DNA of 64,000 nt from Sulfurimonas sp. (GTDB lineage Bacteria; Campylobacterota; Campylobacteria; Campylobacterales; Sulfurimonadaceae), in contig NZ_JAHYJB010000006.1 in the NCBI RefSeq assembly GCF_019429335.1, positions 1-64,000 on the forward strand, in the 5' to 3' direction. Shown here in pieces: positions 7,989 through 56,814 of this stretch. The notes beneath the pieces are model-generated. The model was given only the letters and a program-made list of their open reading frames with translations, was not told where the DNA came from and did no database searches. The position numbers and the translations under genes are program-made. The stretch's first letter is position 1. Each line of letters begins with the position of its first letter.

Positions 7989-8891
7989 ATGACTAAAGCC
8001 GATGTTACTAAAAAAACCCATGCGGGTTTTGTCTCTCTAATAGGTCGTCCAAACGCTGGAAAGAGTACTCTTATGAACTCTCTTTTAGGCGAAAACATCG
8101 CGATGGTTAGCCAAAAAGCCAATGCAACTAGAAAAAGATCAAATGCGATTGTTATGCATGAAAACACACAAATTATCTTTGTTGACACTCCAGGATTACA
8201 TGAGAGAGAAAAAGTTTTAAATCAGTTTATGCTTGATGAAGCCCTAAAGGCTATGGGTGACTGCGATTTGATTGTTTATCTGGCTCCCGTAACAGACAGT
8301 GTTGAGTATTATGAAAAATTTTTAAAACTAAACAACTCTAAAATTAAACATATAATAGTATTAAGCAAAATAGATCAGATTACTCAAGAAAAGCTCTTCA
8401 AAAAGATAGCTCAATATAGTCAATTTGCAGATTATTTCGAAGCACTTATTCCTATGGCTGTACCTAAGAAAGTCGGCCATAAAGACTTGCTTGAGACTAT
8501 TTCAAAACTACTGCCTGAGTCACCGTTTCTTTTTGACCCAGAGGATTTGACAAGCGAGCTTGTTCGCGACATATATGCAGGATTTATCAGAGAGGGTATA
8601 TTTCAAAATGTAAGTGATGAAATTCCGTACGAATCTGATGTTTTAATAGACAAAATAGATGAAGAGAAGAATATAGACAGAATTATTGCCACCATTATTG
8701 TTGAAAAAGAGTCCCAAAAAGGGATTATTATCGGCAAAGGCGGAGAAGGCATAAAGAGAATCGGAAAATATTCAAGAGAGAAGATAGAGATGCTTAGCGG
8801 GAAAAAAGTTTATCTTGATTTACAAGTCGTTGTAAAAAAGGGATGGACAAAAGATAAATCATATTTACAAGAGATAGGTTACACGTCATGA
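7989..8891 (+). CDS. era: GTPase Era
   Basis: 300-aa GTPase that binds the 3' end of 16S rRNA during 30S assembly. G1 is GRPNAGKST near residue 18, G3 DTPG near 63 and G4 SKID near 124. A C-terminal KH domain contains GIIIGKGGEGIKRIG. It starts 8 nt after hslU and overlaps the next gene by 4 nt. Confidence 0.97.
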   Translation: MTKADVTKKTHAGFVSLIGRPNAGKSTLMNSLLGENIAMVSQKANATRKRSNAIVMHENTQIIFVDTPGLHEREKVLNQFMLDEALKAMGDCDLIVYLAPVTDSVEYYEKFLKLNNSKIKHIIVLSKIDQITQEKLFKKIAQYSQFADYFEALIPMAVPKKVGHKDLLETISKLLPESPFLFDPEDLTSELVRDIYAGFIREGIFQNVSDEIPYESDVLIDKIDEEKNIDRIIATIIVEKESQKGIIIGKGGEGIKRIGKYSREKIEMLSGKKVYLDLQVVVKKGWTKDKSYLQEIGYTS

Positions 8892-9853
8892 GATTACTAC
8901 TACTTATTTTTATAAGCTTAAATTTGTTTGCCGGCGATATATTGACCAGCTATAGAGTTAATGGTACTGTAGATATTGAGAAACAGCTCGATATGGAACT
9001 CTCCAAAGAGGAGTATTGGAAAAAGTATTTGGCTGACAAAGATACAAAATTTGGTTATATAGAATCTTACAGCAATGTTTTGACATGTGACAAATCGAAG
9101 TCTGCTCTGGATTTCTACTCAGTTGATCAAAATAAAAGTTTTAAATTCAAAAAAACATATAGCGCTTTTACAGGTAAGTTAAAAGGCGATAAAATAAAAG
9201 AGGGTGATTTAAGAACTCCGATTGGAATATATCAAATTGTTAAAAAACTCTCGAAAGAGACAAAGCTGGATCCATTTTACGGTCCTTTGGCTTTTGTTAC
9301 TTCATACCCTAACGTATATGATACCTACAGAGGAAAAAATGGCTCAGGAATATGGATTCATGGTCTCCCTGCAGAGGACAGAGATGAGTTTACCAGAGGC
9401 TGCATTGCAATTAGCAACTCAAGTATTGAATGTTTAGACAACGATATCGATATCTCTAAAACTCTTCTTATAATTAATGATTCAAGTATCAAGACGGACA
9501 TATCTAAAGAGATTCTAACATCCGTACTTGCCCAGTTGTACGCTTGGAGATACGCTTGGATCTATGATGACATAGATAGTTATTTAGGCTTCTACTCGCC
9601 TAATTTTGTTAGATTTGACGGAATGGATATTAAAAAGTTCACAAGCTACAAAAGTAGGATTTTTAAAAAAGCAGAGAAAAAGAGCATTATCTTTAATGAC
9701 ATAAATATACTGCCTTATCCAAACAGCGCTAACATTTACCAAATAACATTTAAAGAGTATTATAAATCAGACAGTTTTCAATTCAGTGGCGAAAAAACAT
9801 TACTTGTAGAGTTTGATAAAAACAGAAAAATTCGCATACTTACTGAAAAGTAA
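8888..9853 (+). CDS. csd6: Csd6/Pgp2-type L,D-peptidase acting on peptidoglycan (YkuD fold)
   Basis: 321 aa with a signal peptide (about 1-16). The central YkuD domain carries the catalytic signature HGLPAEDRDEF...RGCIAIS (His near 154, Cys near 172). The C-terminal part (about 210-320) looks like an NTF2-like domain, as in H. pylori Csd6 and C. jejuni Pgp2. Those enzymes trim tetrapeptides to tripeptides (L,D-carboxypeptidase) and are needed for helical shape. The next gene encodes the partner DL-carboxypeptidase. Ordinary L,D-transpeptidase activity cannot be excluded, but the NTF2-like extension and neighbour favour the shape enzyme. Confidence 0.85.
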   Translation: MRLLLLIFISLNLFAGDILTSYRVNGTVDIEKQLDMELSKEEYWKKYLADKDTKFGYIESYSNVLTCDKSKSALDFYSVDQNKSFKFKKTYSAFTGKLKGDKIKEGDLRTPIGIYQIVKKLSKETKLDPFYGPLAFVTSYPNVYDTYRGKNGSGIWIHGLPAEDRDEFTRGCIAISNSSIECLDNDIDISKTLLIINDSSIKTDISKEILTSVLAQLYAWRYAWIYDDIDSYLGFYSPNFVRFDGMDIKKFTSYKSRIFKKAEKKSIIFNDINILPYPNSANIYQITFKEYYKSDSFQFSGEKTLLVEFDKNRKIRILTEK

Positions 9854-9866
9854 AAAGAAGCACTAG

Positions 9867-11180
9867 ATGAAATATGTTTTTGCAAAACTCCTTTTTATAT
9901 TATTTCTAGCGCCTCTTTTTTTACATGCAGATGTTCAGCTTATTAAAAAAGAGAACAATGATTCGAATGTTACCCTGCTTGTAATAGGGGGCATACACGG
10001 CGATGAGCCTGGTGGATATTTTTCAGCATCAATTTTAGCAACTCACTATAAAATAGACTCAAAAAACCTCTGGATAGTCCCAAACCTAAATCAAGAAAGC
10101 ATTCAAAAAGATAGCAGAGGTATCAACGGAGATATGAATAGAAAATTTGCCATTGTAAAGAATGGTGATAGAGACAAAAAAACCGTTGATGAGATAAAAA
10201 ATATTATTACTCAAGAAAACGTCTCATTAGTTTTAAATCTGCATGACGGCAACGGGTTTTACAGAAAGACAGACAAGGGAAATATTTTTAATCCAAATGC
10301 CTGGGGACAGACATGCGTAATTGATCAATGCGAGCTAAACATAAATCAGCCATTTGGGAATTTAAATACAATCGCTCTTGAGATTAAAGATAGAATAAAC
10401 AGAAGGCTTATCGAAGAGCATCATACTTTTGACGTAAAAAATACAAACACAAAGTTTTATGATGAAGCTATGCAGCTATCTCTTACATACTTTGCCGTCA
10501 CACACAATAAACCTGCTTTTGCAATAGAGAGCAGCAAGAACCTCCCTTCATTGTCACAAAAAGTTTTTTATCATCTTCTTTCAATAGAAGAGTTTATGAA
10601 TATCATGGGTATCTCCTTTAAAAGAGAGTTTGAGCTAAACGAGCTTGAAATAGATAAAATTTTAAAAAATTACGGAAATTTAACTATAAACAACAATATT
10701 TCTATTAATTTAAATGATATAAAAAAATCTTTAAGCTTTATTCCGATAAAATCAGAGAGTAACGTGTTTAAGTTCTCCAGCCCGCTAGGTAGTGTTGCTA
10801 GGGAGGGTAGAAGTTTTGTTGTTTACATAGGCAATCAAAAAGTCGCAACTCTTAATCCGCAATATTTCAAAATGGGTGAGTCTTGCTCGGAAGAGTTTGA
10901 AGCAGTTGTTGATGGAAAAAAAGTTTCATTGAATAGAGCTTCAGATTTTTTTGTAAATGACGATTTCAGTATCGTCAAAAAAGATAGTTATCGTGTAAAT
11001 ATTATTGGTTACAGAGCGGTGGGTCGTCTTGATGAAAGTGATATCAACGTTAAACTTCAAGATTTTGACAAAAAATTCTCTATTGACGTAAACGAAAAGG
11101 TTTACAGGGTAGAGTTTTATAAAAATAATGAATTTTGTTCTATGTCCAAAGTTCATTTTAGACAGGATAATGCAAAATGA
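9867..11180 (+). CDS. csd4: Csd4/Pgp1-type peptidoglycan D,L-carboxypeptidase (M14-like)
   Basis: 437 aa, matching H. pylori Csd4 and C. jejuni Pgp1 in length. A signal peptide (about 1-21) is followed by an M14-type zinc site GGIHGDEPGG (His and Glu ligands) and a second ligand region LNLHDGNGF near residue 125. Further conserved blocks are NGDMNRKF and AIESSKNL, the latter containing the catalytic Glu. Two beta-rich domains follow. The family cleaves the tripeptide of muropeptides to dipeptide and controls cell curvature. The first ligand is His as in C. jejuni, rather than the Gln known from H. pylori Csd4. It ends overlapping the pilus operon start by 4 nt. Confidence 0.85.
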   Translation: MKYVFAKLLFILFLAPLFLHADVQLIKKENNDSNVTLLVIGGIHGDEPGGYFSASILATHYKIDSKNLWIVPNLNQESIQKDSRGINGDMNRKFAIVKNGDRDKKTVDEIKNIITQENVSLVLNLHDGNGFYRKTDKGNIFNPNAWGQTCVIDQCELNINQPFGNLNTIALEIKDRINRRLIEEHHTFDVKNTNTKFYDEAMQLSLTYFAVTHNKPAFAIESSKNLPSLSQKVFYHLLSIEEFMNIMGISFKREFELNELEIDKILKNYGNLTINNNISINLNDIKKSLSFIPIKSESNVFKFSSPLGSVAREGRSFVVYIGNQKVATLNPQYFKMGESCSEEFEAVVDGKKVSLNRASDFFVNDDFSIVKKDSYRVNIIGYRAVGRLDESDINVKLQDFDKKFSIDVNEKVYRVEFYKNNEFCSMSKVHFRQDNAK

Positions 11181-12730
11181 GTAAAAAAGAACAGCACTCT
11201 TTCTCTAGTGTACTTTCTATCAATCCATACAAAGGCGGATATTTCAGCGCAGTTGCCAGCTCCCTAAAGATTGTTGCGACTCCTATTTATAGCAAAGAGC
11301 AGTATGTAATCTCTTACCTTAATACAAAAAGTTTTATTAATAGCAATATTTCTGTTAGTAAAAATATTCCCCAAGATGATTTATACGATGCAATTTACAA
11401 TAAAGCGTATGATGAGCTTGGACTCGACCAAGCGATTATGTACCAGATTGAGTATATAGAAACTTTTGGCAACCTAGAAGAAGGCAACAGAAGCTTTCAT
11501 GTATTTATTATTGATCCATTGGCAGTCAACGACATATTTAGAAATGCCGTTGAAAAAGTTAAATATATAGACTATATTATTCCTGCGCCTCTTCTGCTAA
11601 AGTCACTCTACTCCAGAGAGATTATACAAGACAGCGGTGTGCACTGTTTCATATATTTTCAGGAGAACGATACGGCTATTACTATATATAGTGAAAAAGA
11701 GTTCCTATATACAAAGTCAATAAACTATTCTTTCTTGCAGATGCATGAGAGATTTTGTGAGATACATGGAGAGATGGTTGAGTATGACGATTTTATCAAT
11801 TTCTTGTCACGTGAAAATCTTAAAAATACTAACAATAGCTACAAAACCTCTGTTATCAAGCTTTATAAAGAGATATTTTCAAATATAAACGATATATTAA
11901 CTTACGTAAAAAGAGCATTGGACATTGACAAGATTGACTCAGTATACATAGATACAGAGCTCTCCACTCTCACTAAAATAGATGAGATGGCAGAGGTAGA
12001 GCTTGGCATAAGAAGTAGCAGTTATAACTTTAACTATGGACTTCTCAGTGAAGAGAGTCATATTGACCATCTTCACTCTCTTATGTATATCTACACTACT
12101 CTTCCTGAAAAAGAGAGATATGAGTGTAACTTCACCACATATCACCGCCCTCCAAAATTCACACAAAGAGATAGCGGACGTGCTATCTTATTGGCTGTTG
12201 CCGCATTGCTGCTTGCTTTCTTGTATCCAGCAACATATTGGACACTGACATATGCTCAATCACTGCAATATGAGCTTCTAGTAGATGAATACAAAACTGT
12301 TCACAATATTAAAGTTACAAGAGAAGCAACTATAAAAAATAAAGAAGCAGAAAAAGACAAAGTCTCAAAACTGCTAGCCCATGAACAGCAAGAGTATGTT
12401 GAGAAGAAAAACACGCTTGTAAAAATTCATGAGGTTAAAGTCAATTATCCGATGAAAGCAAATCTGATACAGGTGCTGACTAAGGATTTAAACAGACATG
12501 ATGTGAGATTAGAGGTCGCTATTTACGCTGAAACTGAAAAAAGCGATAAAGTTGAGGCTTCTAAAGGGTTCAAGCTTGGTCTTGTTGCATCTAATGATAA
12601 AAAGATTACTGATTTAGTCAAATATCTAACTAAAACCTATGAAGGAAAGTTTCACTTCTCTATTAATGAGATATCATATAAAGTTGAAGAGAAATTATAC
12701 TTTGGTGAATTGAGGGTGAATCTATTATGA
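11177..12730 (+). CDS. PilM-PilN-like fusion protein of a type IV pilus/competence system
   Basis: 517 aa. Residues about 1-325 have the look of an actin-like PilM/MshI domain. A single membrane helix (AILLAVAALLLAFLYP) lies near 340-360, followed by a coiled coil (about 375-415) and a PilN-like ferredoxin-type periplasmic domain. In most systems PilM and PilN are separate cytoplasmic and membrane proteins forming the assembly platform with PilO and PilP; here one chain covers both. It begins the operon (4-nt overlap with csd4) and overlaps the PilO-like gene by 4 nt. Assignment rests on architecture and context, as primary sequence similarity is weak. Confidence 0.7.
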   Translation: MSKKEQHSFSSVLSINPYKGGYFSAVASSLKIVATPIYSKEQYVISYLNTKSFINSNISVSKNIPQDDLYDAIYNKAYDELGLDQAIMYQIEYIETFGNLEEGNRSFHVFIIDPLAVNDIFRNAVEKVKYIDYIIPAPLLLKSLYSREIIQDSGVHCFIYFQENDTAITIYSEKEFLYTKSINYSFLQMHERFCEIHGEMVEYDDFINFLSRENLKNTNNSYKTSVIKLYKEIFSNINDILTYVKRALDIDKIDSVYIDTELSTLTKIDEMAEVELGIRSSSYNFNYGLLSEESHIDHLHSLMYIYTTLPEKERYECNFTTYHRPPKFTQRDSGRAILLAVAALLLAFLYPATYWTLTYAQSLQYELLVDEYKTVHNIKVTREATIKNKEAEKDKVSKLLAHEQQEYVEKKNTLVKIHEVKVNYPMKANLIQVLTKDLNRHDVRLEVAIYAETEKSDKVEASKGFKLGLVASNDKKITDLVKYLTKTYEGKFHFSINEISYKVEEKLYFGELRVNLL

Positions 12731-13368
12731 ATTTCAAATTAATGATTGAAGATACCTTACAAAAAATTGACAATTTTTTTAAGGAAAAATCTCAAAAAGA
12801 TGTCTATATAATTTACATAATGATTGTTGCCGTGTTAGGCGCATTAGCTTATCCATTTTATGAACCATCTGAAAACGAGTTTAATACGGTAAAAGAGAAA
12901 GTAACTCAAATTACGGCTAAAATTGATGCTGATAAAATCTACCTAAAAATAAATACCGAAGCTACTATAGCCAAACTTGAGCAAGCTATAAAAGCTTTAG
13001 AGGGTGAGTTGGTTGCTCAGGAAGAGACCAATAAATATATTAAAGAGAAGATTGAGACGATATCGTCTTTAATATATGATGAAATTGCATGGGGTAAATA
13101 TCTTAACTCAATATCTATACGTGCTAAAGAGCATAATATAAAGATTATTAACTTTACAAATACATATTCGCTAAATAATGACTCATCATTTGGTCATGTC
13201 TTGGATATCGCACTTGATGTCAAGGGTAGTTATTTGGGCACAATCAAATTTATCAACTCTTTAGAGCAAAGCGATCTTGTTGTTGATGTCAACAACATAG
13301 ATATCAAAGCGCAAGATACTTTAAATACAAAACTTGCTATTTCAGTTTGGGGGATTACTTACAAATGA
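12727..13368 (+). CDS. PilO-like inner-membrane alignment protein
   Basis: 213 aa with one N-terminal membrane helix (about 25-43, IIYIMIVAVLGALAYPFY). A long coiled coil (about 50-115) and a small periplasmic alpha/beta domain follow (SISIRAKEHNIKIINF, then GSYLGTIKFINSLEQSD, the usual PilO pattern). PilO and PilN partners link the cytoplasmic ring to the secretin through PilP. ATGA-type overlaps on both sides indicate tight co-translation. Confidence 0.75.
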   Translation: MNFKLMIEDTLQKIDNFFKEKSQKDVYIIYIMIVAVLGALAYPFYEPSENEFNTVKEKVTQITAKIDADKIYLKINTEATIAKLEQAIKALEGELVAQEETNKYIKEKIETISSLIYDEIAWGKYLNSISIRAKEHNIKIINFTNTYSLNNDSSFGHVLDIALDVKGSYLGTIKFINSLEQSDLVVDVNNIDIKAQDTLNTKLAISVWGITYK

Positions 13369-13829
13369 AAACAATATCAATAGGACTGTTCGCAGTTATT
13401 TTAAGTACTTCTCTTTTCGCTGGTGAGCTTGAGTGGGTAGATGAGCAGATAGAGGCGATAAAACCGCCAAGGAAAGGATATTCTATTTCAGGAATCAATG
13501 ATCCCTTTGTTTTCTTAGAGAAAAATAAACCTAAATCCAAAGACAAAGGCGCTTCTTCTTCAGCGCCTCGCGCAAAAGTTGCAACAGCAAAGTCTGCTTC
13601 TGGCGTGAAAAAAGATGAAGGTGTGAAAAAAAGCGGCAGCTTTGAGTTAAGTACGATTATCAACTCATCGGCTTTAATTAACGGAAGCTGGTACAAAAAG
13701 AGTGACGTTATAAACAGCTACACTATCTCTGATATTAGCAAAAATAGCGTAACCCTGAAAAAAGGTGATAAGTTACTTATCTTATCAACTGTTACCAAAA
13801 AACAAACTCTAAAATTCAAAAATAAGTAG
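13365..13829 (+). CDS. PilP-like periplasmic protein
   Basis: About 154 aa from ATG at 13365, which overlaps the preceding stop as ATGA and directly begins a signal peptide (MKTISIGLFAVILSTSLFAG). An in-frame TTG at 13347 would spoil the signal peptide. A Ser/Ala/Lys-rich linker (about 55-90) leads to a C-terminal beta domain (VINSYTISDISKNSVTLKKGDK), the inner-membrane complex/secretin connector fold seen in PilP and GspC. C. jejuni has a comparable small competence protein before the secretin gene. Confidence 0.7.
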   Translation: MKTISIGLFAVILSTSLFAGELEWVDEQIEAIKPPRKGYSISGINDPFVFLEKNKPKSKDKGASSSAPRAKVATAKSASGVKKDEGVKKSGSFELSTIINSSALINGSWYKKSDVINSYTISDISKNSVTLKKGDKLLILSTVTKKQTLKFKNK

Positions 13830-13838
13830 GGCAGATTT

Positions 13839-15431
13839 ATGAAACTTATAAAAACAACAATGTGTACAACGCTTTTAACACTTCTTTTATCAAGCAGTGC
13901 TTTGGCTGACTGTTCTTATGAACTTTTTAGTATTAGTTCTACTAAAGAGACCAAAATAATAGATTTCATAGAGCAACTTAGTGATGAGTGTGAATTTAGT
14001 ATTATAGTTACCGATCCAAATGCGCAGAAATTTTTGGAGAGCAACTTAAACAAGACCAATCTAAACAACCTGACGATAGATGAGGTTTTTAATATTATAT
14101 TAAAAGAGAACAATCTTACATATACTCTTGAAAACAATATATTAAAAATTGCATACCTTCAGACAAAGATGTTTAATATTGACTACATTCTTTCTCAAAG
14201 AAAGAGCGAATCCAAAACAAACATTACGCTATCATCAGAAGGTGCTGGCACATCCTCTCAAACAGGAGCAACTGTTGCCACAAATGAAGAAGTTGGTGGC
14301 GGTTCTGCAGGCAAATCAGGCATGAATGTAAATAGCTCTGACGAAGTGCAGTTTTGGCATCAGCTGGATTTAGAGCTGCAAGAAATTCTAAATAGACCGC
14401 AAGATGTTTACGTAGCTCAAGCTCCTATAATAAATAAAAATGCAGGAATTATTACAGTTACTTCAACAGTCAAGCAGATGGAGAGACTAGAAGAGTATCT
14501 TAAAAAATTACAAGACAAAGTTCAACTCCAAGTTCTAATCGATGTTCAGTTGTTGTCCGTCACACTAAGCAAAGGTAAAACTACCGGAGTTGACTGGGCT
14601 CAGCTCTATAAACTTCAGGATATTGATTTAGCATTTGACTATATAAGTAAAAACAATGTAATTAAACTAACTAATGAGGGCGGTATTTTAGGAACCACGT
14701 CATTTGACACAATGGGACCACAGGCCGTTAATAATGCTCATGCGTTCCAGTTGTCTGCAAAGGGAAGCCTAAATGAGGTAATAAAATTTCTTAAAACCCA
14801 AGGTGATGTTACTTCAATCTCCAACCCTAAAGTTTTAACACTCAATAATCAAGCTGCTCTTATAACGGCTGGTACTGAGTATTTTTATAAAATTATAAGT
14901 ACAGAGACTCTGTCTGGCACAACAAGTGGCACACAGAGCACTAGTGAAGACCTTCAGTCAGTATTTGCAGGGGTTCTATTGGACATTACTCCTGAGATTT
15001 CAGATGACGATATGATAACGCTAAAAATAAATCCATCTCTTTCTGAGACTGCAACTGATATGTCTCTTGTTGAACCAGGAGACAGAACGATGCCGCCGGA
15101 CCTTCGCCGTCGCCAACTCTCATCAGTTGTAACAGTAAAAGATGGCAATCGTATCATACTAGGCGGTTTAATTAATACAAGCAACTCTATTAATGTAAAT
15201 AAAGTTCCTATACTAGGTGACATTCCTATACTAAACTATCTATTTAAGTATGAAGATAAATTAAAAATAACACAGGAACTTGTTATTGTTATTGAGCCGC
15301 GCATTGTCAGAAAAGGCAAAAGCGATCTCTCTCTTTCGGATTTAGGCTATCAGGGTCTCTCTGAAAAAGTTTTACTAGGCTCTAAAGATGCAATTGATGC
15401 TACTGTAGATTTATCAAAAGAGGAAAATTGA
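13839..15431 (+). CDS. mshL: MshL/CtsD-type secretin
   Basis: 530 aa with a signal peptide (about 1-23), an N-terminal STN-like domain (about 28-110), a Gly/Ser/Thr linker (about 128-165) and N1-type repeats. The C-terminal secretin domain has VFAGVLLDITPEI, SSVVTVKDGNRIILGGL and VPILGDIPILNYLFK. It forms the outer-membrane pore for a pilus, pseudopilus or DNA uptake machine. Gene order matches the competence cluster of C. jejuni (secretin, ExeA-like ATPase, small proteins, GspE, GspF). The last codons overlap the next gene (TTGA). Confidence 0.9.
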   Translation: MKLIKTTMCTTLLTLLLSSSALADCSYELFSISSTKETKIIDFIEQLSDECEFSIIVTDPNAQKFLESNLNKTNLNNLTIDEVFNIILKENNLTYTLENNILKIAYLQTKMFNIDYILSQRKSESKTNITLSSEGAGTSSQTGATVATNEEVGGGSAGKSGMNVNSSDEVQFWHQLDLELQEILNRPQDVYVAQAPIINKNAGIITVTSTVKQMERLEEYLKKLQDKVQLQVLIDVQLLSVTLSKGKTTGVDWAQLYKLQDIDLAFDYISKNNVIKLTNEGGILGTTSFDTMGPQAVNNAHAFQLSAKGSLNEVIKFLKTQGDVTSISNPKVLTLNNQAALITAGTEYFYKIISTETLSGTTSGTQSTSEDLQSVFAGVLLDITPEISDDDMITLKINPSLSETATDMSLVEPGDRTMPPDLRRRQLSSVVTVKDGNRIILGGLINTSNSINVNKVPILGDIPILNYLFKYEDKLKITQELVIVIEPRIVRKGKSDLSLSDLGYQGLSEKVLLGSKDAIDATVDLSKEEN

Positions 15432-16243
15432 AACCAAGTATCTATGAAAACTCTAGGGATGTTTTTTTAGATACGGTCAATGCTGAAGATTACATCCAGC
15501 TAGAGAGAGTCTCCATCTTTTACCAATCTCTTAGGGATTCCATAGAAAAGCCGCTAAAGATGGTTCTTTTATACGGTAAGCCGGGAACAGGCAAGAGCAT
15601 GCTCCTATCAAAACTTCACCAGAATCTCTCATCATCTCAAAAAGTTTGCCTCTATAAAACACCGATTTTGGACGAGAGCGAATTTTTTAAAACGTTAGCT
15701 CAGGATCTCTATGCAATGACTTATGATGGTGAATTGAATTTTACACAATTTGTAAAAGTTGTTGAAAAAAGAGAGTTAGTCGGAGCAACTGTTCCGCTGA
15801 TACTATTAGACGAAGCTCAACTATACTCAACGCCGATGATGGAAAAAATAAGACTTCTCTCTGATACTAGAAAAGTTAAATTTGTTATAGCGCTTCACAA
15901 AACCGAAAAAGAGGACATTATTGCGAAGGAGCACTTTCAAACAAGAATTTGGGAGAGCATAAAACTTGAAAATGCCTCAACTTCAGAGTTGAAAATCTAT
16001 ATTCAAAAGAAACTTATGAAAGCAAATTCAATAGACACTGCTAGTATGTTTACACAAAAATCTATTGATTTAGTCCATAAATTGACTGATGGAAATTACA
16101 GAGACGTAAACAAACTTGTATACACGCTATTTGATATATATGTATACTATGCAAATAACAATCCAAACAAAATAAATACGAGCGAAATTTCAACCAAGTT
16201 TATAGAGATGGCTGCAATTCACACAGGGTTAATAGATGCTTAA
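15428..16243 (+). CDS. ExeA/MshM-like AAA ATPase
   Basis: 271 aa. Walker A is GKPGTGKSM near residue 50 and Walker B is PLILLDEAQ near 125. The ExeA/MshM family couples ATP to secretin or pilus assembly, and the C. jejuni counterpart by position is CtsP. The TTG start overlaps the secretin stop and is preceded by AGAGGA. There is no C-terminal peptidoglycan-binding domain, unlike ExeA, so it fits the shorter MshM/CtsP form. Confidence 0.85.
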   Translation: MKPSIYENSRDVFLDTVNAEDYIQLERVSIFYQSLRDSIEKPLKMVLLYGKPGTGKSMLLSKLHQNLSSSQKVCLYKTPILDESEFFKTLAQDLYAMTYDGELNFTQFVKVVEKRELVGATVPLILLDEAQLYSTPMMEKIRLLSDTRKVKFVIALHKTEKEDIIAKEHFQTRIWESIKLENASTSELKIYIQKKLMKANSIDTASMFTQKSIDLVHKLTDGNYRDVNKLVYTLFDIYVYYANNNPNKINTSEISTKFIEMAAIHTGLIDA

Positions 16244-17093
16244 TATTAATGATTTAGAACTTAGACACAAAAAATATAAACGAAAGTACTATGCACCGCT
16301 ATTTACCATGATTGTTTCTACGGCAATAATCGCAGCATCTATTACTTGGTTTTTTGTATACAACCAAAAAAATACATTTATAGTTGAAAACAAAATCGTT
16401 AAAGAGCCTATTGTTGCACAAAAAATTGAAACTGAACCTGTTGTTGAAGAAAAAAATGAATCAACGCTAGAATTGGCAACTAAAGAAAAACTACATGTAA
16501 TATCTGAAAACGCTGTAAGAGAAGAAACAGCCGAAGAAAAGCAAGAGAAACTTGTGCTCTCACCATCCTTAGGATTTATGAGCAAATTAGAATCAAAGAG
16601 CCAAATCTATAAAGAGCCAGCCAAGGAGTTAAACAGCACTCCAAAACCAAAAGAGACGCCAGAACAAAAACGAGCAGAAACAGTATCGCCAAAAATAGAA
16701 AATAAACAAATAGCACCTAAAAAAGAGGAAATCGAAGAGATTACAATAAATACAGATAAAAAGAGCTCTATCAATATAGCAAGAAAAGACGAGATAGAAG
16801 ATATCGCGCACGTACTCAAAAGATTTAATGTAAACCACAATCCTGCACTAAGCCTGTTTGTGGCAAAAAAATATTATCAACTAGGTGATTATGAGCAAGC
16901 ATATAACTATGCACTTATTACAAATGATATTAATAACAACATAGAGGATAGTTGGCTTATATTTTCAAAGTCTCTAGTTAAACTAAATAAAAAAGAGCTG
17001 GCCTTGGAGACTCTTAAAAAATATATTTCACACTCGCACTCTTCACAGGCAAGACAGCTTTTAGAGGAGATACAAACAGGAAAATTCAAATGA
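16236..17093 (+). CDS. MshN-like membrane-anchored TPR protein
   Basis: 285 aa. A single membrane helix lies near residues 20-42, followed by a long Lys/Glu/Pro-rich disordered periplasmic linker (about 45-175) and a C-terminal TPR segment (about 190-280: YYQLGDYEQAYNYALITNDI). This architecture and position match MshN. It overlaps both neighbours. The role is probably periplasmic scaffolding; no enzymatic motif is visible. Confidence 0.7.
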   Translation: MLNINDLELRHKKYKRKYYAPLFTMIVSTAIIAASITWFFVYNQKNTFIVENKIVKEPIVAQKIETEPVVEEKNESTLELATKEKLHVISENAVREETAEEKQEKLVLSPSLGFMSKLESKSQIYKEPAKELNSTPKPKETPEQKRAETVSPKIENKQIAPKKEEIEEITINTDKKSSINIARKDEIEDIAHVLKRFNVNHNPALSLFVAKKYYQLGDYEQAYNYALITNDINNNIEDSWLIFSKSLVKLNKKELALETLKKYISHSHSSQARQLLEEIQTGKFK

Positions 17094-17632
17094 AAATATT
17101 ACTATCAATACTAATTTCAATAACTATGTACGCTGACGTAAAACAGGATATGTTTGCGCTTTATCAAGATAAAAAATATGCGGACGTTTGTAATCTTGGT
17201 TTTAAAAACTTTGGAGACCACTCAAGAGATGAGGAGTATGTCTCTTTGTACTCATTTTCCTGCTTAAAAATTGACTATGTTGACCGTTTGGCAGTACCTA
17301 TTGCAACGCTTAAATTTTCAAAAGAGGCACGTGCAAATGCTGCATATTTTTCGACTATTCTTATGCAAAAAAAGCTTCTATATCATGCACTTCTTGATAA
17401 CCATGATATATCTTCATTGAATTTACCAACTACAGATTATGTTCTATCAAAAGTTTTTGACTTATTTACAAAAATAAAAAAAGATGGGCAAAGAGAGTTT
17501 TATATTCTTGAAGATGAAAACGATAAAGAGTTAAAATATAAACTTTATATTTTAAAAGATGGTAAAATAGATAAAATGGTTATTGAAGAGTTCTACAATT
17601 CAATAAGCACTAAAAAACATATCTACTGGTAG
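17090..17632 (+). CDS. secreted protein of unknown function in the pilus/competence operon
   Basis: 180 aa with a short signal peptide (about 1-14, cut before ADVKQ). It is helical, with a TPR-like start (MFALYQDKKYADVCNLGF) and two Cys residues. I do not recognise a family. C. jejuni also has a small unnamed gene between its ExeA-like ATPase and GspE-like ATPase genes, so it may be a conserved system component. Confidence 0.7.
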   Translation: MKILLSILISITMYADVKQDMFALYQDKKYADVCNLGFKNFGDHSRDEEYVSLYSFSCLKIDYVDRLAVPIATLKFSKEARANAAYFSTILMQKKLLYHALLDNHDISSLNLPTTDYVLSKVFDLFTKIKKDGQREFYILEDENDKELKYKLYILKDGKIDKMVIEEFYNSISTKKHIYW

Positions 17633-17640
17633 AGGGCATT

Positions 17641-19374
17641 ATGGATAGGATTACATCTGATTTACTAGCTAACGGCTCCATAATGAAGAGCCAGGTTGAC
17701 AGACTTATTGCCAAAGGTCTTGACAGCAACCTTATTCTTAGAGACATTACTATATCTGGATTTATGACTATGGATAGGCTTGTACGCTTCATTGTTGATA
17801 AGATTCAAAGCGGCGAGTATGACCTCTCAATCATTGATGACTACGATTATATCCAAGAAAAAGATGTTCTAATCAAACTAGCCCAAAAACAAAATGCTCA
17901 ATTTCTTGATTTAGATTCTATAGATATGGATTATAGACTAACAGAAAAAGTCTCCCTTGCACAGTTAAAAAAATATAATGCTTTTCCTGTCTCAGAAGAT
18001 GATTTAAGTATTACTGTTGCCTTTTGCGATCCACTTGATATGGAAGCACACGAATCGATTCAGAGACTTTTTCCAAAAAAACCACTTAAAATAGCAGTAG
18101 CTACGAAAAAACAGATTGAATCATACCTTTTTAAAATAGAGCTTAAAGACAGCATAAAGGGTCTAGTAAAAAAAATCAGGGATGAGTTAAATTCTATAAA
18201 CTCCATAGAGGAGCAACAAGAAGCATCCTCTATTCTTCTTTTGATTGATGTTATTTTAAATGCATGTATTAAAAACCGCGCAAGTGACGTTCATATTGAG
18301 CCGACAGAAAAAAATTGTGTTGTCAGAACAAGAATTGACGGAAAACTTATTGAGATATTTTTATTTGAAAAAGATATCTACCCTCCTCTTGCCTCTAGAC
18401 TTAAGCTGCTAGCCAACCTTGATATAGCAGAAAAAAGAAAACCGCAGGATGGCCGTTTTTCAACTATGGTTAGCTCCAAGGAGTATGATTTCCGTATATC
18501 TACACTCCCGATTTTATACGGCGAATCTATTGTTATGAGGGTTCTTGATAAACAAAAAGCACTCGTGAGACTTGAAGATGCCGGAATGGATTCTATCAGC
18601 TACCAAAAATTTTTAAAAGCGCTAAAAACACCATATGGCATTATATTGGTTACGGGTCCGACAGGAAGCGGTAAAACAACAACCCTTTATGGTGCTCTGA
18701 ATGAACTCAGAAATGTTGAAGACAAAGTTATTACCGTTGAAGATCCGGTTGAGTACAGAATGAATCTTATTCAGCAGGTACAGGTCAATCCAAAAGTCGG
18801 TCTTAGTTTTGCAGATGCTCTTCGCTCAATCTTAAGACAAGACCCCGATAAAATCATGATTGGTGAGATTCGCGACTCTGAAACGCTAGAAATAGCAGTT
18901 AAAGCTGCACTAACAGGCCACTTAGTAATCTCTACGCTGCACACAAATGACTCAATAAGCGCTGTAACTCGCATGGTTGACATGGGCATTGCTCCGTATC
19001 TTATAAGTGGCTCCTTGGTTGCAATTCAGGCGCAAAGACTTGTTAGAAAAATTTGCCAAAACTGTAAAACTGAGGAGAAAGTGCCTCTTTCAGCACTTGA
19101 TGATTTAAAAAATTTGATTCCGCCGGAGAGTAAATTTTATATTGGCAAAGGATGTAAAGAGTGTAATGAGAGTGGTTATTTTGGCAGGGAAATGATTTGT
19201 GAAGTTTTAGTTGTAAACGAAAAAATATCATCTCTTATTGCGAAGAATGCGCCAGTAGAATTAATACATGCTCAAGCGTTAGAAGATGGATTTATTGGAT
19301 TATTTGAAAACGGCATCAACAAGGCTCTTGCTGGTGTTACAAGTTTAGAAGAAATTTTAAGGGTGGCAAAATAA
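17641..19374 (+). CDS. GspE/PulE-type assembly ATPase (MshE/CtsE-like)
   Basis: 577 aa. An N-terminal MshEN-type domain (about 1-150) precedes the motor. The motor has Walker A GPTGSGKTTT near 340, an Asp box with DPDKIMIGEIRD and a His box LVISTLHTND. A zinc site is formed by CQNC and CKEC near 470-520. It powers pilus or pseudopilus assembly at the inner membrane. MshEN domains can bind c-di-GMP, but I could not confirm the two RLGxx-type motifs here. It overlaps the GspF gene by one base. Confidence 0.92.
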   Translation: MDRITSDLLANGSIMKSQVDRLIAKGLDSNLILRDITISGFMTMDRLVRFIVDKIQSGEYDLSIIDDYDYIQEKDVLIKLAQKQNAQFLDLDSIDMDYRLTEKVSLAQLKKYNAFPVSEDDLSITVAFCDPLDMEAHESIQRLFPKKPLKIAVATKKQIESYLFKIELKDSIKGLVKKIRDELNSINSIEEQQEASSILLLIDVILNACIKNRASDVHIEPTEKNCVVRTRIDGKLIEIFLFEKDIYPPLASRLKLLANLDIAEKRKPQDGRFSTMVSSKEYDFRISTLPILYGESIVMRVLDKQKALVRLEDAGMDSISYQKFLKALKTPYGIILVTGPTGSGKTTTLYGALNELRNVEDKVITVEDPVEYRMNLIQQVQVNPKVGLSFADALRSILRQDPDKIMIGEIRDSETLEIAVKAALTGHLVISTLHTNDSISAVTRMVDMGIAPYLISGSLVAIQAQRLVRKICQNCKTEEKVPLSALDDLKNLIPPESKFYIGKGCKECNESGYFGREMICEVLVVNEKISSLIAKNAPVELIHAQALEDGFIGLFENGINKALAGVTSLEEILRVAK

Positions 19375-20621
19375 TGAAATACTTTGTAGCAACTATACTT
19401 ACAAAAGGCAAAAAAGAACAGATTGGCATGTATGCAAAAGATAGGAAACAGGCGAACGAGCTTACAAAACTAAAACATGTTGGGATTATTCTTAAAATTA
19501 CGGAAGAGCAGGAGCCGTTAGAGGCTCAGCTTAAAAGATTTAAGACAACTCTATTAAGTAATGTTAAAAAAAGAAAAATAAAGCCGGATGCATTAATTGC
19601 ATCAATTAGGCAGTTAGCGGTTATGACTAATGCCGGTATTTCTATTTATGACTCACTTAGCGAAATTTCAAAATCTACAACTGACGAAAATCTAAAACTT
19701 GTTTTTGGCAAACTCGCAGAAGATATAAACTCTGGACATTCACTCTCAAAATCTATGAATAACTTCCGCTTTGAACTTGGCAACTTGGCTATAGCCATGG
19801 TTCAACTAGGTGAAAAAACAGGTAACCTAGATGATGCACTCTACTCTCTTGCTAACATGCTTGAAGAGATTCGCTCAAATGTTGTTAAATTTAAAAAAGC
19901 CATGGCATATCCTAGAAATGTTATGATTGCGATGGCGGTTGCATTTACTGTTCTAATCTCTTATGTTGTTCCAAACTTTAAGACCATGTTTGAGAAATTA
20001 AATGCCGAACTGCCACTTCCTACTCTTATATTATTAAAACTTGAGTATCTTTTTAACAATTACGGACTCTATGTATTAGCCTCCTTAGTTATATCATTTG
20101 CAATTTTTAAATATCTGATAAATAACAACAAAGAAATCAGATATGGCTGGCATGAGGTTTTATTAAGAACATATTTGATAAAAAATATCATTATGTTTGC
20201 AACACTTAGCCGTTTTACTCTCGTGTTTTCAGAGCTTATTCGGGCCGGTATACCTATAGCAGAAGCGCTTGACACTTCAATATCAATGATTGACAACCTT
20301 CCATTAAAAGCCAAACTCTCATCTGTTAGATTTGCTGTTGAAAAAGGCTCATCTTTGCATGAAGGATTAGATGATACAAAACTATTTGAAAATATGATTA
20401 TTCAAATGGTTAGTGCCGGCGAAGACAGCGGTACCTTAGACACCATGATTGGAAAAGTTGCAGAGTACTACAAAATGAGGTTTGATGCTATCATTGATGG
20501 TCTTTCGGAAGCAATTGAGCCAATTATGTTGCTAATACTGGCAAGCATGGTTCTTCTTCTTGCTCTTGGCATATTCTTACCTATGTGGGATATGGGTAAC
20601 GCAGTTACAGGTGGTAAATAG
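19374..20621 (+). CDS. GspF/PilC-type inner-membrane platform protein (MshG/CtsF-like)
   Basis: 415 aa with two repeated T2SSF domains (about 75-195 and 280-400). Three to four membrane helices are visible, including NVMIAMAVAFTVLISYVVP and MLLILASMVLLLALGIFLP. It anchors the assembly ATPase and is a core part of type II secretion and type IV pilus machines. It is the last gene of the operon, and the terminator overlaps its stop codon. Confidence 0.92.
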   Translation: MKYFVATILTKGKKEQIGMYAKDRKQANELTKLKHVGIILKITEEQEPLEAQLKRFKTTLLSNVKKRKIKPDALIASIRQLAVMTNAGISIYDSLSEISKSTTDENLKLVFGKLAEDINSGHSLSKSMNNFRFELGNLAIAMVQLGEKTGNLDDALYSLANMLEEIRSNVVKFKKAMAYPRNVMIAMAVAFTVLISYVVPNFKTMFEKLNAELPLPTLILLKLEYLFNNYGLYVLASLVISFAIFKYLINNNKEIRYGWHEVLLRTYLIKNIIMFATLSRFTLVFSELIRAGIPIAEALDTSISMIDNLPLKAKLSSVRFAVEKGSSLHEGLDDTKLFENMIIQMVSAGEDSGTLDTMIGKVAEYYKMRFDAIIDGLSEAIEPIMLLILASMVLLLALGIFLPMWDMGNAVTGGK

Positions 20622-49886: not shown

Positions 49887-49924
49887 CACAAAATAACAAA
49901 ATCTAATACTTGGGAGTTTACTTT

Positions 49925-51268
49925 ATGAAATTCAAAATTGCGTTAGCACTCTCAGTTACCACTGCCCTTTTCTCTCAAGATATCAAGACAACAATAAGCG
50001 AAGTTTTATCGACAAATCCTGTTGTTTTGGAGAGACTCAAAAACTACAATGTTACAAAAGAGGACATTACAACCGCGCAGGCAGGTTATTATCCAAAACT
50101 TGACTTATCAATCGGTGTCGGCAAAGAAGATGGCGAAAGAGCCCTAAATCAAAAGTTTGACTATAGCGTATACCAAAATTCTCTTACCTACACTCATAAT
50201 CTATTTAATGGTTTTAAAACAACCCACAGAGTAGGACAGCAAGAGAACAGAACAATTGCCGCAGCATACAGCTATATTGAAAAAGTAAACGACACCTCTT
50301 TTGAGACATTAAACTTTTACCTGCAAGTTATGAAAAACAGAGAGCTACTTAATATAGAAAATGAGAATGTAGAGATAAACTCTGAAATATTTAAAAAAGT
50401 ACAAAAGCTATATGATGCAGGGCTTACTACTCTCTCTGAAGTAAATAAAATTGAATCGGCTCTCTCTCTTGCAAAAGCCAACTATGTAGTTCAAGAAAAC
50501 ACGCTTCTAAACTCAACTTATAACATGCAAAAAGTTCTTGGGCGCTTTATTGAACCAGAGAAGATGCTAAGACCTGAACTCAACGTTGCTCTTCCTGCAA
50601 ATATTGATGAAGCGACGCAGTTTGCGATACAAAACAATCCATCTCTTTTGGTTGGAAAATATAACGTTAAGCTGGCACAAGAGACACATAAAGAGAAAGA
50701 AGCGCCTTTTTACCCCTCACTTGATATCGAAATATCTCAAAGTATGAACAAAAACCTAAGCGGCATCGAGGGCAAGTATGACAATCTAAGAGCTATGGCA
50801 TATCTTAGATACAACTTCTTTAACGGATTCGCAGACAAAGCTGAACTCCAAAAAAGCGTAAGCGCAATTCATCAAGAGATTGAGACAAAAAACCAATTAA
50901 GACGCGAGGTTATGGAGGGATTAAATCTAGCTTGGTCCGCACATGAAAAGCTTGCAAATCAGCTTGAGCACCTAAACGAATACAAAAGATTCTCTCTTCA
51001 AACTCTAACGCTCTACTCTAAAGAGTATGATTTAGGTCGCCGCTCGCTTCTTGACCTTCTCTCTGCTCAAAATGATTTTATAGCGGCAAAAGCGCAGATT
51101 ATAAATACAGAATACAGCATGCTTTTTGCAAAATACAGAATTTTAGATGCAATGGGGACACTTGTTTCAACAGTTCTGGGTGAGACTGATATTTTATACT
51201 CAAATGTCGGTTTGAATGGAAAAGCTCCGCAAAATAATGATAAACTACCAACTTCTTATGATGAATAG
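49925..51268 (+). CDS. TolC-like outer-membrane channel of the type I secretion system
   Basis: About 447 aa. ATG 49925 has GGGAG at 8 nt and directly begins the signal peptide (MKFKIALALSVTTALFSQ). An upstream TTG at 49910 lies on that ribosome site and is not used. Two OEP helical repeats are present, with LTYTHNLFNGFKT and MAYLRYNFFNGFADKAE marking equivalent strands. It is LapE/AggA-like by position ahead of an ABC exporter and HlyD adaptor. Confidence 0.9.
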   Translation: MKFKIALALSVTTALFSQDIKTTISEVLSTNPVVLERLKNYNVTKEDITTAQAGYYPKLDLSIGVGKEDGERALNQKFDYSVYQNSLTYTHNLFNGFKTTHRVGQQENRTIAAAYSYIEKVNDTSFETLNFYLQVMKNRELLNIENENVEINSEIFKKVQKLYDAGLTTLSEVNKIESALSLAKANYVVQENTLLNSTYNMQKVLGRFIEPEKMLRPELNVALPANIDEATQFAIQNNPSLLVGKYNVKLAQETHKEKEAPFYPSLDIEISQSMNKNLSGIEGKYDNLRAMAYLRYNFFNGFADKAELQKSVSAIHQEIETKNQLRREVMEGLNLAWSAHEKLANQLEHLNEYKRFSLQTLTLYSKEYDLGRRSLLDLLSAQNDFIAAKAQIINTEYSMLFAKYRILDAMGTLVSTVLGETDILYSNVGLNGKAPQNNDKLPTSYDE

Positions 51269-51294
51269 ATAAAATAGTACTCTAAAGGTGTTAA

Positions 51295-51789
51295 ATGCTT
51301 TTAACAAGCACAGAAAATTTAAAAATGGATGCCTTGCTTGAGTGCTTGGTGCTGTTTACAAAACTATATCACAAACCTTTCTCTGCAGAGGCTCTAACTG
51401 CTGGATTGCCTATTGAACCAGGGTCTGATGCACCTGAACTCTTCTCTATAAACAACGCAAAAGGTCTCTTCTCCCGTGCTGCGGAGAAGGCCGGACTTAA
51501 ATCTTCGCTTATCAAAAGACCTCTCTCTCAAATTTCGCCTCTACAGCTGCCTATGATTCTTTTGCTCTCAAATCAGGGAGCTTGTATCTTAGACAGCTTC
51601 AACAAAGAGGGCACAATGGCAAAAATCATTATGCCTGCAGAAGAAGCGATTGAACAGTGGGTTGAAGTTGATGTTTTAAGAGATGAGTATATCGGTTTTG
51701 GCTTTATGATAAAAAAGCTTTTGAGTACAACGACAAAAACTCAAGAACGCTTCATCTTAACCAAAAACACTGGTTTTGGAGCACCATAA
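51295..51789 (+). CDS. C39-like N-terminal domain of a LapB-type ABC exporter (5' fragment of a frameshifted gene)
   Basis: 164 aa. It resembles the C39-like domain at the N-terminus of LapB/RTX exporters (HKPFSAEALTAGLP, GLFSRAAEKAGLKSSLIKRPL) without the catalytic Cys, so it would bind substrate rather than cut it. The frame ends in GFGAP and TAA. In the frame of the next gene the sequence reads on as KHWFWSTIKLSLPMYKDVLY, the normal exporter junction. The shift lies in an A5 run at 51763-51767; one extra A would join both parts into a protein of about 728 aa, the usual LapB length. Confidence 0.8.
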   Translation: MLLTSTENLKMDALLECLVLFTKLYHKPFSAEALTAGLPIEPGSDAPELFSINNAKGLFSRAAEKAGLKSSLIKRPLSQISPLQLPMILLLSNQGACILDSFNKEGTMAKIIMPAEEAIEQWVEVDVLRDEYIGFGFMIKKLLSTTTKTQERFILTKNTGFGAP

Positions 51790-51803
51790 AATTATCATTA
51801 CCT

Positions 51804-53477
51804 ATGTATAAAGATGTTTTATACGCCTCTTTGCTTATAAATCTTTTTGTTCTTGCCTCTCCTCTCTTTACTATGAACGTTTATGACAGAGTCGTTCCGA
51901 ATAACGCGATTGAAACACTTTGGGTATTTGCAATAGGTGTAACAATTGTTTATCTTATAGACACATTTTTAAAATTTACAAGAACTTACCTGCTTGAGAG
52001 TGCTGCAAAAAAAAGCGATGTAATTATGTCGTCAATCATTTTTGAAAAGGTACTAGACCTTAAAATGGCTCATCATCCCGCTTCTGTTGGCTCATTCGCA
52101 AGCAATATAAGAGATTTTGACAGTATCAGAAGTTTTTTAACAAATGCCACTATGGCGGCCGTGATTGACCTTCCTTTTACTATAATCTTTCTGCTTGTGA
52201 TATCGTATATCGGCGGAGTTATTGTTTTAATTCCGATAATTACAATGCTTTTTATAGTAACTTACGCATTTTTGATAAAAAAACCGCTGCAAGAGAGCAT
52301 AGAGAGCACTCACGAGGCAAGTGCTAAAAAAAGCTCAATACTTATTGAATCTCTTAATAATATCGAAACATTAAAGACGTTAGGTGCGGTAAATCAGGCT
52401 CAATGGAACTGGGAAGAGTCGACTGGAGAGATAGCTTCAAGAAGTTTAAAATCAAGACTTTTATCCGCTTCCATTCCGACAGTAACACAGTTTCTTATCC
52501 AGCTAAATACGGTTATGATAATTGTCGCAGGTGTCTACCTGATTCAGGAGTTTGAGCTCTCTATGGGCGGGCTAATAGCTATTGTAATTTTGACATCAAG
52601 AACACTTGCTCCGATGGGTCAAGTTGCAGCACTTTTAACAAACTACGAGGATACAAAAACCTCATACGAAACATTAAATGAGATAATCTCTCAGCCAAGC
52701 GAGCGTCCTGTTGGCAAAAAGTTCCTGCAAAAACCTGATTTTAGCGGAAATATAGAGTTTGTCGATGTTACATTTTCTTACCCTAACAGCGATATTCCTG
52801 CACTTAAAAATGTCTCTTTTACAATAAAACCGGGGGAACATGTAGCAATTATCGGTCGAATAGGTTCCGGAAAAAGTACGATACAAAAACTTATTTTAGG
52901 TCTTTATGAGCCTAATTCTGGGCAAATACTAATTGATGGCATAGATATTAAGCAAATAGACCCTTCTGATTTGAGAAAAAATATAGGCTATGTTTCTCAG
53001 GATATAATGCTATTTCGAGGAACGGTAAAAGAGAACATAACATTCTGTGCATCGCATGCAAGTGACTCTTCCATGATTCGAGCCGCACAAATCAGCACAA
53101 CTTCAGACTTTATAAAAAAACACCCAAAAGGGTATGAGATGCCAATAGGAGAGCGGGGGCAAGGTTTATCTGGGGGTCAGCGACAAAGCATAGGCATTGC
53201 CCGCGCCTTTTTGCTTGAATCAAAGATTATGCTCCTTGATGAGCCTAGTAATGCAATGGACCAGATGACAGAAGCAAAACTTTTGGGCAATATGCAAACA
53301 GCTCTAAAAGGGAAAAGCTCTCTTATAGTTACACAAAAGATAAACCTTTTAAAAATAGTAGAGAGGGTAATAGTTATGAACGAGGGGAGGATTTTCATAG
53401 ATGCTCCTAAAGAAGAAGCGCTTAAAAAACTTCAAAACAAGCAAGATAGTGAAGGAGATGGTATTGAAAAAAAATAA
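51804..53477 (+). CDS. type I secretion ABC exporter, membrane and ATPase domains (3' part of the frameshifted LapB-like gene)
   Basis: 557 aa as read from ATG 51804, but the frame is open from the A-run at 51763. The membrane domain (about 1-280) begins with the family hallmark LFVLASPLFTMNVYDRVVPN. The ATPase has Walker A GRIGSGKST, signature LSGGQRQ and Walker B IMLLDEPSNAMD. It energises export through the HlyD and TolC partners. Whether a functional protein is made depends on the frameshift being a sequencing error, a reversible length change or a true mutation. No good ribosome site precedes ATG 51804. Confidence 0.85.
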   Translation: MYKDVLYASLLINLFVLASPLFTMNVYDRVVPNNAIETLWVFAIGVTIVYLIDTFLKFTRTYLLESAAKKSDVIMSSIIFEKVLDLKMAHHPASVGSFASNIRDFDSIRSFLTNATMAAVIDLPFTIIFLLVISYIGGVIVLIPIITMLFIVTYAFLIKKPLQESIESTHEASAKKSSILIESLNNIETLKTLGAVNQAQWNWEESTGEIASRSLKSRLLSASIPTVTQFLIQLNTVMIIVAGVYLIQEFELSMGGLIAIVILTSRTLAPMGQVAALLTNYEDTKTSYETLNEIISQPSERPVGKKFLQKPDFSGNIEFVDVTFSYPNSDIPALKNVSFTIKPGEHVAIIGRIGSGKSTIQKLILGLYEPNSGQILIDGIDIKQIDPSDLRKNIGYVSQDIMLFRGTVKENITFCASHASDSSMIRAAQISTTSDFIKKHPKGYEMPIGERGQGLSGGQRQSIGIARAFLLESKIMLLDEPSNAMDQMTEAKLLGNMQTALKGKSSLIVTQKINLLKIVERVIVMNEGRIFIDAPKEEALKKLQNKQDSEGDGIEKK

Positions 53478-55410: not shown

Positions 55411-55411
55411 A

Positions 55412-55442
55412 TTTACATGTAGAAAATATATCTACATGTAAA
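55412..55442. terminator. perfect palindromic hairpin between convergent genes
   Basis: TTTACATGTAGA (55412-55423), a 7-nt loop and TCTACATGTAAA (55431-55442) form a 12-bp perfect stem. It begins two bases after the LuxR gene stop and lies 16 nt from the stop of the convergent adhesin-like gene. It is a likely bidirectional terminator, though the T-runs are weak. Confidence 0.6.
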
Positions 55443-55457
55443 TAGCCGACATTCTTA

Positions 55458-56753: not shown

Positions 56754-56814
56754 CTGTAACTCCAAAATATAGTCTATTTTGGCAATAATACGACAAGTTT
56801 AAAAAAAAATATAT

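Follow-up and report, generated by a model that had tools for sequence, protein, structure and literature searches.

A stretch of 64,000 nucleotides from Sulfurimonas sp. (order Campylobacterales; contig NZ_JAHYJB010000006.1, below called the window) contains nine open reading frames (ORFs) at 11177-20621, all on the plus strand, in the order mshI(PilM-PilN)-J-K-L-M-N-(180 aa)-E-G. Judged by sequence, the cluster is probably an envelope-spanning type IV filament assembly machine of the MSH (MSHA) type, placed in this class mainly by its secretin and gene order. The predicted machine lacks only pilins and a peptidase; it includes PilO-, PilP- and secretin-type partners, a single assembly ATPase and a single platform protein. 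We consider it probable that the candidate genes belong to one retractable MSHA-type pilus, with the machine encoded here and the pilins elsewhere, which would serve both attachment and DNA uptake. The cluster is real, conserved and ordinary for its phylum. A preliminary description, made from the letters alone, had noted nine tightly packed genes, an MSHA-like identity, a PilM-PilN fusion and a gene order parallel to the cts cluster of Campylobacter jejuni. All four observations are borne out, by the ORF list (six of the eight junctions between adjacent ORFs overlap, and the remaining gaps are of 9 and 8 bases, counted from the listed starts), by the family and tree position of the secretin together with the gene order of the Aeromonas MSHA locus, by structure prediction, and by comparison with ctsR-D-P-X-E.

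MshI as a candidate single-chain PilM-PilN

The 517-aa MshI has no match in Pfam or NCBIfam. According to the predicted structure, it combines PilM and PilN in one chain, made up of an actin-like domain in the cytoplasm, a PilN-like motif, one membrane helix, and a periplasmic coiled coil followed by a ferredoxin-like domain. The actin-like domain covers residues ~7-310, the linker NFTxxxRPP 318-326, the membrane helix ~333-354, and the ferredoxin-like domain 444-516. The AlphaFold2 model (58 sequences, pLDDT 83.7) consists of the actin-like domain, a continuous helix 332-440 and the ferredoxin-like fold. The helix opens with a hydrophobic stretch, the hydropathy peak starting at residue 336. 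The structure alignments contained sequences from 57 of the 80 fetched loci plus the window sequence each; locus L137 was left out of the MshI alignment because of a stop codon.

The top PDB match of residues 7-310 is the PilM:PilN crystal structure 2ych (Z 23.2, 288 aligned residues, 3.2 A). It is followed by PilM of the type IVa machine (Z 22.3), FtsA (20.7) and the cytoplasmic domain of GspL (EpsL, 13.7). Foldseek matches the N-terminal part to 5eou (E 5e-13). The C-terminal half modelled alone (pLDDT 85.3) matches PilO (Z 11.3), XcpY (11.0), PulL (10.7 and 10.2) and PilN (7.5), and the single Foldseek match under 0.001 is PilO of the type IVa machine. The fold of this half would by itself place it in the PilN/PilO/GspL superfamily, where PilN is not separable from PilO or GspL by fold. 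It is assigned to PilN because PilO is the next gene and because the Aeromonas MSHA locus has two ORFs, MshI1 (291 aa) and MshI2 (197 aa), at the same place; they meet at base 9930 of the Aeromonas record (L061). These names, like the other Aeromonas gene names, are ones we take to be right from position, as the record is unannotated there. The linker NFTxxxRPP, as seen in the alignment, is similar to INLxxxxxRP, which opens the Aeromonas MshI2; both are presumably the PilN motif that binds PilM.

Two observations weigh against the assignment to PilN. The C-terminal domain is nearer PilO and GspL (Z 10-11) than PilN (7.5), and even unrelated collagenases reach 8.2. Further, the MshI profile matches neither the single Aeromonas MshI1 nor MshI2, a comparison of low power because the template profile held one sequence; for this reason structure comparison was used instead of profiles. 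The PilN model of Pfam has no match over the cut-off in the whole genome (best E 0.036, at another locus), and finds neither MshI nor an FcpN-like protein. A search for gammaproteobacterial MshI among plasmids returned the Aeromonas record itself and two partial matches.

Among 248 genomes of the order, 184 have a match to MshI, and all 44 loci scanned (L011-L040, of which L011 is the window's own, and L047-L060) encode it as one ORF of 428-542 aa. Thus the fusion is not a chance event. The exception is G040, where MshI is split by a stop. In the 14 long loci, mshJ and mshL adjoin mshI in 13 cases, and mshE and mshG are present in 12, one locus being cut by its contig; mshM, mshN, mshK or the 180-aa gene were undetected in some of them. 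The long locus L053 is a point against the proposed machine, as it has mshI and the rest of the machine was not found nearby.

Fusions of this kind are known. PulL is described as a PilM-PilN fusion (PMC10191384; this paper, PMC6668835, PMC8308473 and PMC10046745 are cited throughout for their available parts). A 2025 preprint reports that pilM and pilN are fused in most pilus clusters of Campylobacterota (PMC11870540); these clusters come from the same phylum and have the pilMNOPQ order with a fused first gene, and we see no difference from the cluster described here except the name. MSH systems in Epsilonproteobacteria were described in 2019, with no prepilin peptidase in the locus in all MSH loci, as far as the available text goes (PMC6668835). 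Novelty is therefore limited, both the fusion and the missing peptidase being already in print. A single-chain PilM-PilN may be easier to study than a two-protein complex.

The filament family

The secretin, MshM and the gene order led us to file the cluster as MSH-type. MshL groups with the Aeromonas MshL in the secretin tree (support 99/97, 17 Campylobacterota rows), and HofQ and GspD/ExeD fall outside. The gene order I-J-K-L-M-N-E-G is the same as in the Aeromonas MSHA locus. Profiles built from relatives match the Aeromonas MshK (E 6e-7), MshL, MshM (E 1.3e-12), MshE and MshG, with no match to the Aeromonas MshI, MshJ or MshN. Both MshE and MshG, mandatory genes of the published MSH model (PMC6668835), are present. 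The models of the type IVa pilus (T4aP) stay under their cut-offs, with 130.8 versus 284.35 bits for PilQ and 514.7 versus 675.65 bits for PilB. In the ATPase tree, MshE belongs to a Campylobacterota clade of 21 rows (96/87), apart from the ATPases of type II secretion systems (T2SS) and from HofB/TapB.

The closest known systems are the MSHA locus of Aeromonas caviae and, likewise, the MSHA pilus of Vibrio cholerae. The likeness to the Aeromonas locus consists in the order, the MshL-type secretin, the ExeA-type MshM, the MshEN-type ATPase and the absence of a peptidase from the locus. The differences are that MshI1 and MshI2 are fused here, that an additional 180-aa gene precedes mshE, and that the pilins and an MshQ-like protein are encoded elsewhere. 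No ORFs occupy the MshF and MshH places at the locus; no genome-wide search was made for them.

Several observations weigh against the MSH assignment. Long branches lead to the Aeromonas MshL and to HofQ of E. coli, which is the sole T4aP-type secretin in the tree. One ATPase of family f9 (f9b_555) falls outside the 21-row clade. The grouping of MshE with the Aeromonas MshE is weak (56/84), and the ATPase tree neither supports nor rejects MSH. According to a review, in the part available, MSH arose when PilT was lost from the system, whereas two PilT-family ATPases are encoded at other loci of this genome. Finally, PMC11870540 names such clusters type IV pili (T4P) after curation against other filament types.

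One alternative is a T2SS, in which MshI would be GspL and the machine would secrete proteins. GspL also combines PilM and PilN in a single chain, and the C-terminal domain of MshI is indeed near XcpY, PulL and EpsL (Z 10-11). However, the N-terminal domain is far nearer PilM (Z 23.2) than the cytoplasmic domain of EpsL (Z 13.7), the secretin scores 162 bits against a GspD cut-off of 351 and lies outside the GspD group, the ATPase lies outside the T2SS group, and the genome has the two PilT-family ATPases. This alternative, already disfavoured, is very improbable.

Another alternative is suggested by PilM/N/O homology: the flagellar cage proteins FcpM/N/O, PilMNO homologues of the motor in the same phylum. 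They are separate genes in most species and form their own flagellar operon downstream of miaB, in a neighbourhood with no pilus parts, whereas the genes considered here are fused, lie downstream of era and the M99 carboxypeptidase gene, and are accompanied by a secretin, an ATPase and a platform protein. Already disfavoured by this context, the flagellar explanation has next to no probability.

A separate T2SS-type cluster was observed in L177, L183 and L190 (family f16) and in L189 (f9). Its secretin and ATPase are apart from the MSH rows, and the ATPase groups with GspE/ExeE (98/95).

Pilins at other loci and a proposed link to DNA uptake

The preliminary description had found neither prepilin nor prepilin peptidase in the cluster. 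This holds for the whole contig of the window (C2), where genome-wide searches gave no match to N-methyl pilins or to the A24 peptidase, but not for the genome (2.06 Mb in 73 contigs, 99.98% complete). The search that it proposed recovered pilins, peptidase, ComEC and DprA. The peptidase has a single match, on contig C58. There are five N-methyl pilin matches, three over and two under the cut-off, on C40 and C36. Two of them are adjacent genes on C40 immediately ahead of priA; two belong to an operon on the same contig, together with a 1137-aa and a 153-aa protein; the fifth is alone on C36. From their order and N-termini, we take the operon genes to be MshQ-, D-, O- and P-like, the pilin matches being generic. 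No MshQ domain was found in the 1137-aa protein, and five MshQ-like proteins gave scattered Ig-like or DUF11-type matches in Pfam. Three T2SSE loci were found in the genome. MshE is the only assembly ATPase among them, and the other two belong to the PilT family (426.9 and 439.6 bits, cut-off 319.1).

None of the five pilins was identified as an MshA orthologue; mshA is treated as a loner in the published MSH model (PMC6668835). A single locus is usual for MSH systems, although the model permits several; here C40 and C36 carry the pilins, the minor pilins and the MshQ-like protein, apart from the machine on C2. The Q-D gene pair occurs in 13 of 15 fetched loci, that of the window genome included. 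An MshQ-like protein, recognized mostly by its C-terminal part, is present in 113 of 248 genomes, 108 of which also have MshI (Fisher p 1e-13, uncorrected for kinship). The five with MshQ-like protein and no MshI (G097, G161, G168, G202, G246) are drafts of 57-92% completeness. The association has its gaps in the other direction, and these weigh against it: 76 of the 184 MshI genomes have no MshQ-like match. Both f16 genomes inspected encode D-O-P-C-like minor pilins on the strand of mshI, immediately upstream of it. In both inspected f14 genomes with an mshI-like ORF (L178, L179), pilin-like ORFs are divergent beside a shortened mshI. Since pilins are encoded elsewhere in the genome and minor pilins abut mshI in f16, the absence of a pilin from the cluster reflects how the genes are arranged and does not mean a pilin-less machine.

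Genes identified by eye as prfB and panC are close to the pilin pair and to priA in the window genome (L041:2001-10192, on C40). In the f16 genomes L173 and L175, the MshQ-like gene is separated from the minor pilins by prfB and panC (by eye), an arrangement that hints at an old shared neighbourhood.

The proposed pilus would work as follows. MshE would extend a pilus of these pilins through MshL, and the PilT-family ATPases would retract it. More tentatively, the MshQ-D-O-P-like operon might form an adhesive tip, and the pilin encoded before priA might serve DNA capture, the DNA then passing to ComEC and DprA. The attachment part is proposed because of the gene content, and the DNA-uptake part because of the positional and family link to Cj0683 of C. 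jejuni.

The DNA-uptake genes of the window genome are ComEC, DprA and the pre-priA pilin. A pilin gene stands directly before priA in 23 of 30 genomes checked. It is absent in six, namely all five f14 genomes and G103; in G005 the contig begins at this place. A profile of the pre-priA pilins from which the N-terminal helix had been removed recovers the left-out G029 (E 1.9e-16), G045 (3.7e-9) and window genome (1.7e-22) sequences, whereas the best value for 21 other pilins in the three tests is 0.0075 (Aeromonas MshA); the E-values relate to sets of 23 to 26 sequences. By this comparison, the pre-priA pilins are one family beyond the shared N-terminus. The family is present in 171 of 248 genomes. 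Its weak co-occurrence with MshI is a point against the one-pilus proposal: 136 genomes have both, 48 MshI only, 35 the pilin only and 29 neither, so the pilin is tied to MshI only loosely. The 35 consist of 20 genomes of f9, seven of genus g29 in f11, and eight others.

In C. jejuni, Cj0683 has a pilin-type N-terminus, is encoded in an operon preceding priA, and interacts with CtsE in the yeast two-hybrid system; its deletion nearly abolishes DNA uptake, and its authors, in the available text, report no homologue outside Campylobacter (PMC10046745). From the described position and features, we infer that Cj0683 may be a member of the order-wide pre-priA pilin family.

The cts genes (cj1475c-1471c) have the order ctsR-D-P-X-E, and the gene list of the available text contains no PilM, PilN or PilO (PMC8308473). 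This order parallels K-L-M-N-E, an assignment made by position and size, Cts being known from its gene list; the Cts subunits are smaller, and a pilin-type gene precedes priA in both settings. A genome with such a layout is present in the sample. G029 (f11, g29), presumably a Campylobacter, has a cluster K-L-N-E-G with an ATPase of 519 aa, the length given for CtsE (PMC8308473), and no MshI or MshQ-like match. Its secretin is split in two, the longer piece nesting within f11 (94/93), and its ATPase is inside the 21-row Campylobacterota clade (96/87). From its sequences, the Cts-like cluster looks like a reduced version of the MSH machine that has lost MshI and MshJ and has been retained for DNA uptake. 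Two features of the ATPase tree weigh against this: the Cts-like row is a long branch, and the five f11 ATPases are not one clade in the best tree (AU p 0.06).

The f14 loci L178 and L179 have a reduced cluster with a shortened mshI of about 350 aa. This state may be a step between the complete machine and the Cts layout.

The preliminary description had preferred DNA uptake to an adhesive pilus. This preference is too narrow and is not established, because the DNA-uptake genes coexist with the MshQ-like protein, minor pilins and two PilT-family ATPases, which point to an extended pilus. The stronger form of the idea is a dedicated competence pseudopilus for DNA uptake, with no extended pilus. 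The cts-parallel gene order, a pre-priA pilin family whose place matches that described for Cj0683, and the presence of ComEC and DprA speak for it. However, it leaves aside the two PilT-family ATPases, the 1137-aa MshQ-like protein with its minor pilins, and the second pilin gene that precedes the pre-priA one. Moreover, G029, the genome of Cts layout that was read gene by gene, has no match to MshQ-like protein or MshI, so these additional parts accompany the full machine. We regard such a pseudopilus as rather unlikely.

Conversely, the pilus could be adhesive or motile only, with DNA taken up by another route. The MSHA pilus is named for haemagglutination (PMC10191384), and the MshQ-D-O-P-like operon fits this. 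However, one assembly ATPase was found in the genome and yet ComEC and DprA are present, and C. jejuni, in the available text of PMC10046745, needs the pilin at the pre-priA place for DNA uptake. An adhesive or motile pilus with no part in DNA uptake is thus distinctly improbable.

Beyond the retractable pilus serving attachment and DNA uptake, a broader evolutionary proposal, on which we hold the balance to be even, is that the Cts/Cj0683 apparatus descends, by loss of parts, from a retractable MSHA-type pilus shared across the order, with PilM and PilN joined, and that the pre-priA pilin is its conserved DNA-capture subunit. If so, an adhesive pilus would have had DNA uptake as an ancestral second function. 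Cj0683, which its report confines to Campylobacter, would then belong to a family that most of the order possesses. Two points are possibly new here, the pre-priA pilin family across the order and the interpretation that the Cts layout is an MSH machine in reduced form; no report of either was found among the matches listed in the open-access literature. A pilin-type protein essential for competence, so far regarded as peculiar to Campylobacter, may be part of an order-wide family encoded adjacent to priA. If the Cts machine is a reduced MSHA-type pilus, free-living Sulfurimonas would offer a gene set for studying how a single machine is used for both adhesion and DNA uptake.

The genes of the locus and their surroundings

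Table 1. Candidate genes of the MSH-type cluster and the gene directly upstream (window coordinates)
Feature	Coordinates	Strand	Length (aa)	Basis
M99 carboxypeptidase (cell-shape family), upstream neighbour	9867..11180	+		PF17033, E 1.1e-63
MshI, predicted PilM-PilN fusion	11177..12730	+	517	AlphaFold2 model, PDB matches, hydropathy
MshJ / PilO-like	12727..13368	+	213	Pfam PilO, E 4e-4, 20.9 bits, slightly under the cut-off of 22
MshK / PilP-like periplasmic protein	13347..13829	+	160	Weak CdsD_C match
MshL secretin	13839..15431	+	530	TIGR02519 (MshL), 259.7 bits, above the cut-off of 250.2
MshM, ExeA-type AAA ATPase	15428..16243	+	271	AAA_22, E 9e-12
MshN position, membrane protein with TPR-like C-terminus	16236..17093	+	285	ANAPC3, E 1.5e-5 (weak, under cut-off), and position
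Protein with apparent N-terminal signal (by eye), directly before mshE	17090..17632	+	180	
MshE assembly ATPase (PilB-type)	17641..19374	+	577	T2SSE, E 1.7e-129, and MshEN
MshG platform protein (PilC/GspF-type)	19374..20621	+	415	T2SSF, E 7.6e-51

The position of mshJ is conserved across the loci of relatives. The length of MshK is counted from the first start codon, and the true start is probably further in. The 180-aa protein has no match in Pfam or NCBIfam, and five of its relatives gave nothing consistent in Pfam; 19 relatives were collected from clusters that yielded 28 MshI, and the place of the gene immediately ahead of mshE recurs. A second copy of its gene, with a second mshE-mshG pair, was observed elsewhere in the f16 genomes L174, L176 and L182.

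The stop of the M99 gene and the start of mshI share four bases. Because of this overlap, cell-shape and pilus genes are probably co-transcribed here: the M99 gene is likely on the same transcript as mshI, although outside the pilus machine. Upstream of mshI, the M99 gene is found in 18 of 22 loci of family f1, and era in 20 of 22 loci of other families. In the window, era and mshI are separated by two genes for peptidoglycan enzymes (8888-11180), the M99 carboxypeptidase and a 321-aa protein that by eye is L,D-transpeptidase-like.

At 49910-56765 the window contains apparent type I secretion genes (TolC-like, ABC, HlyD-like; by eye) beside a gene for a 435-aa protein. The N-terminus of this protein resembles, by eye, a LapA-type retention module, and the region may encode a surface adhesin system.

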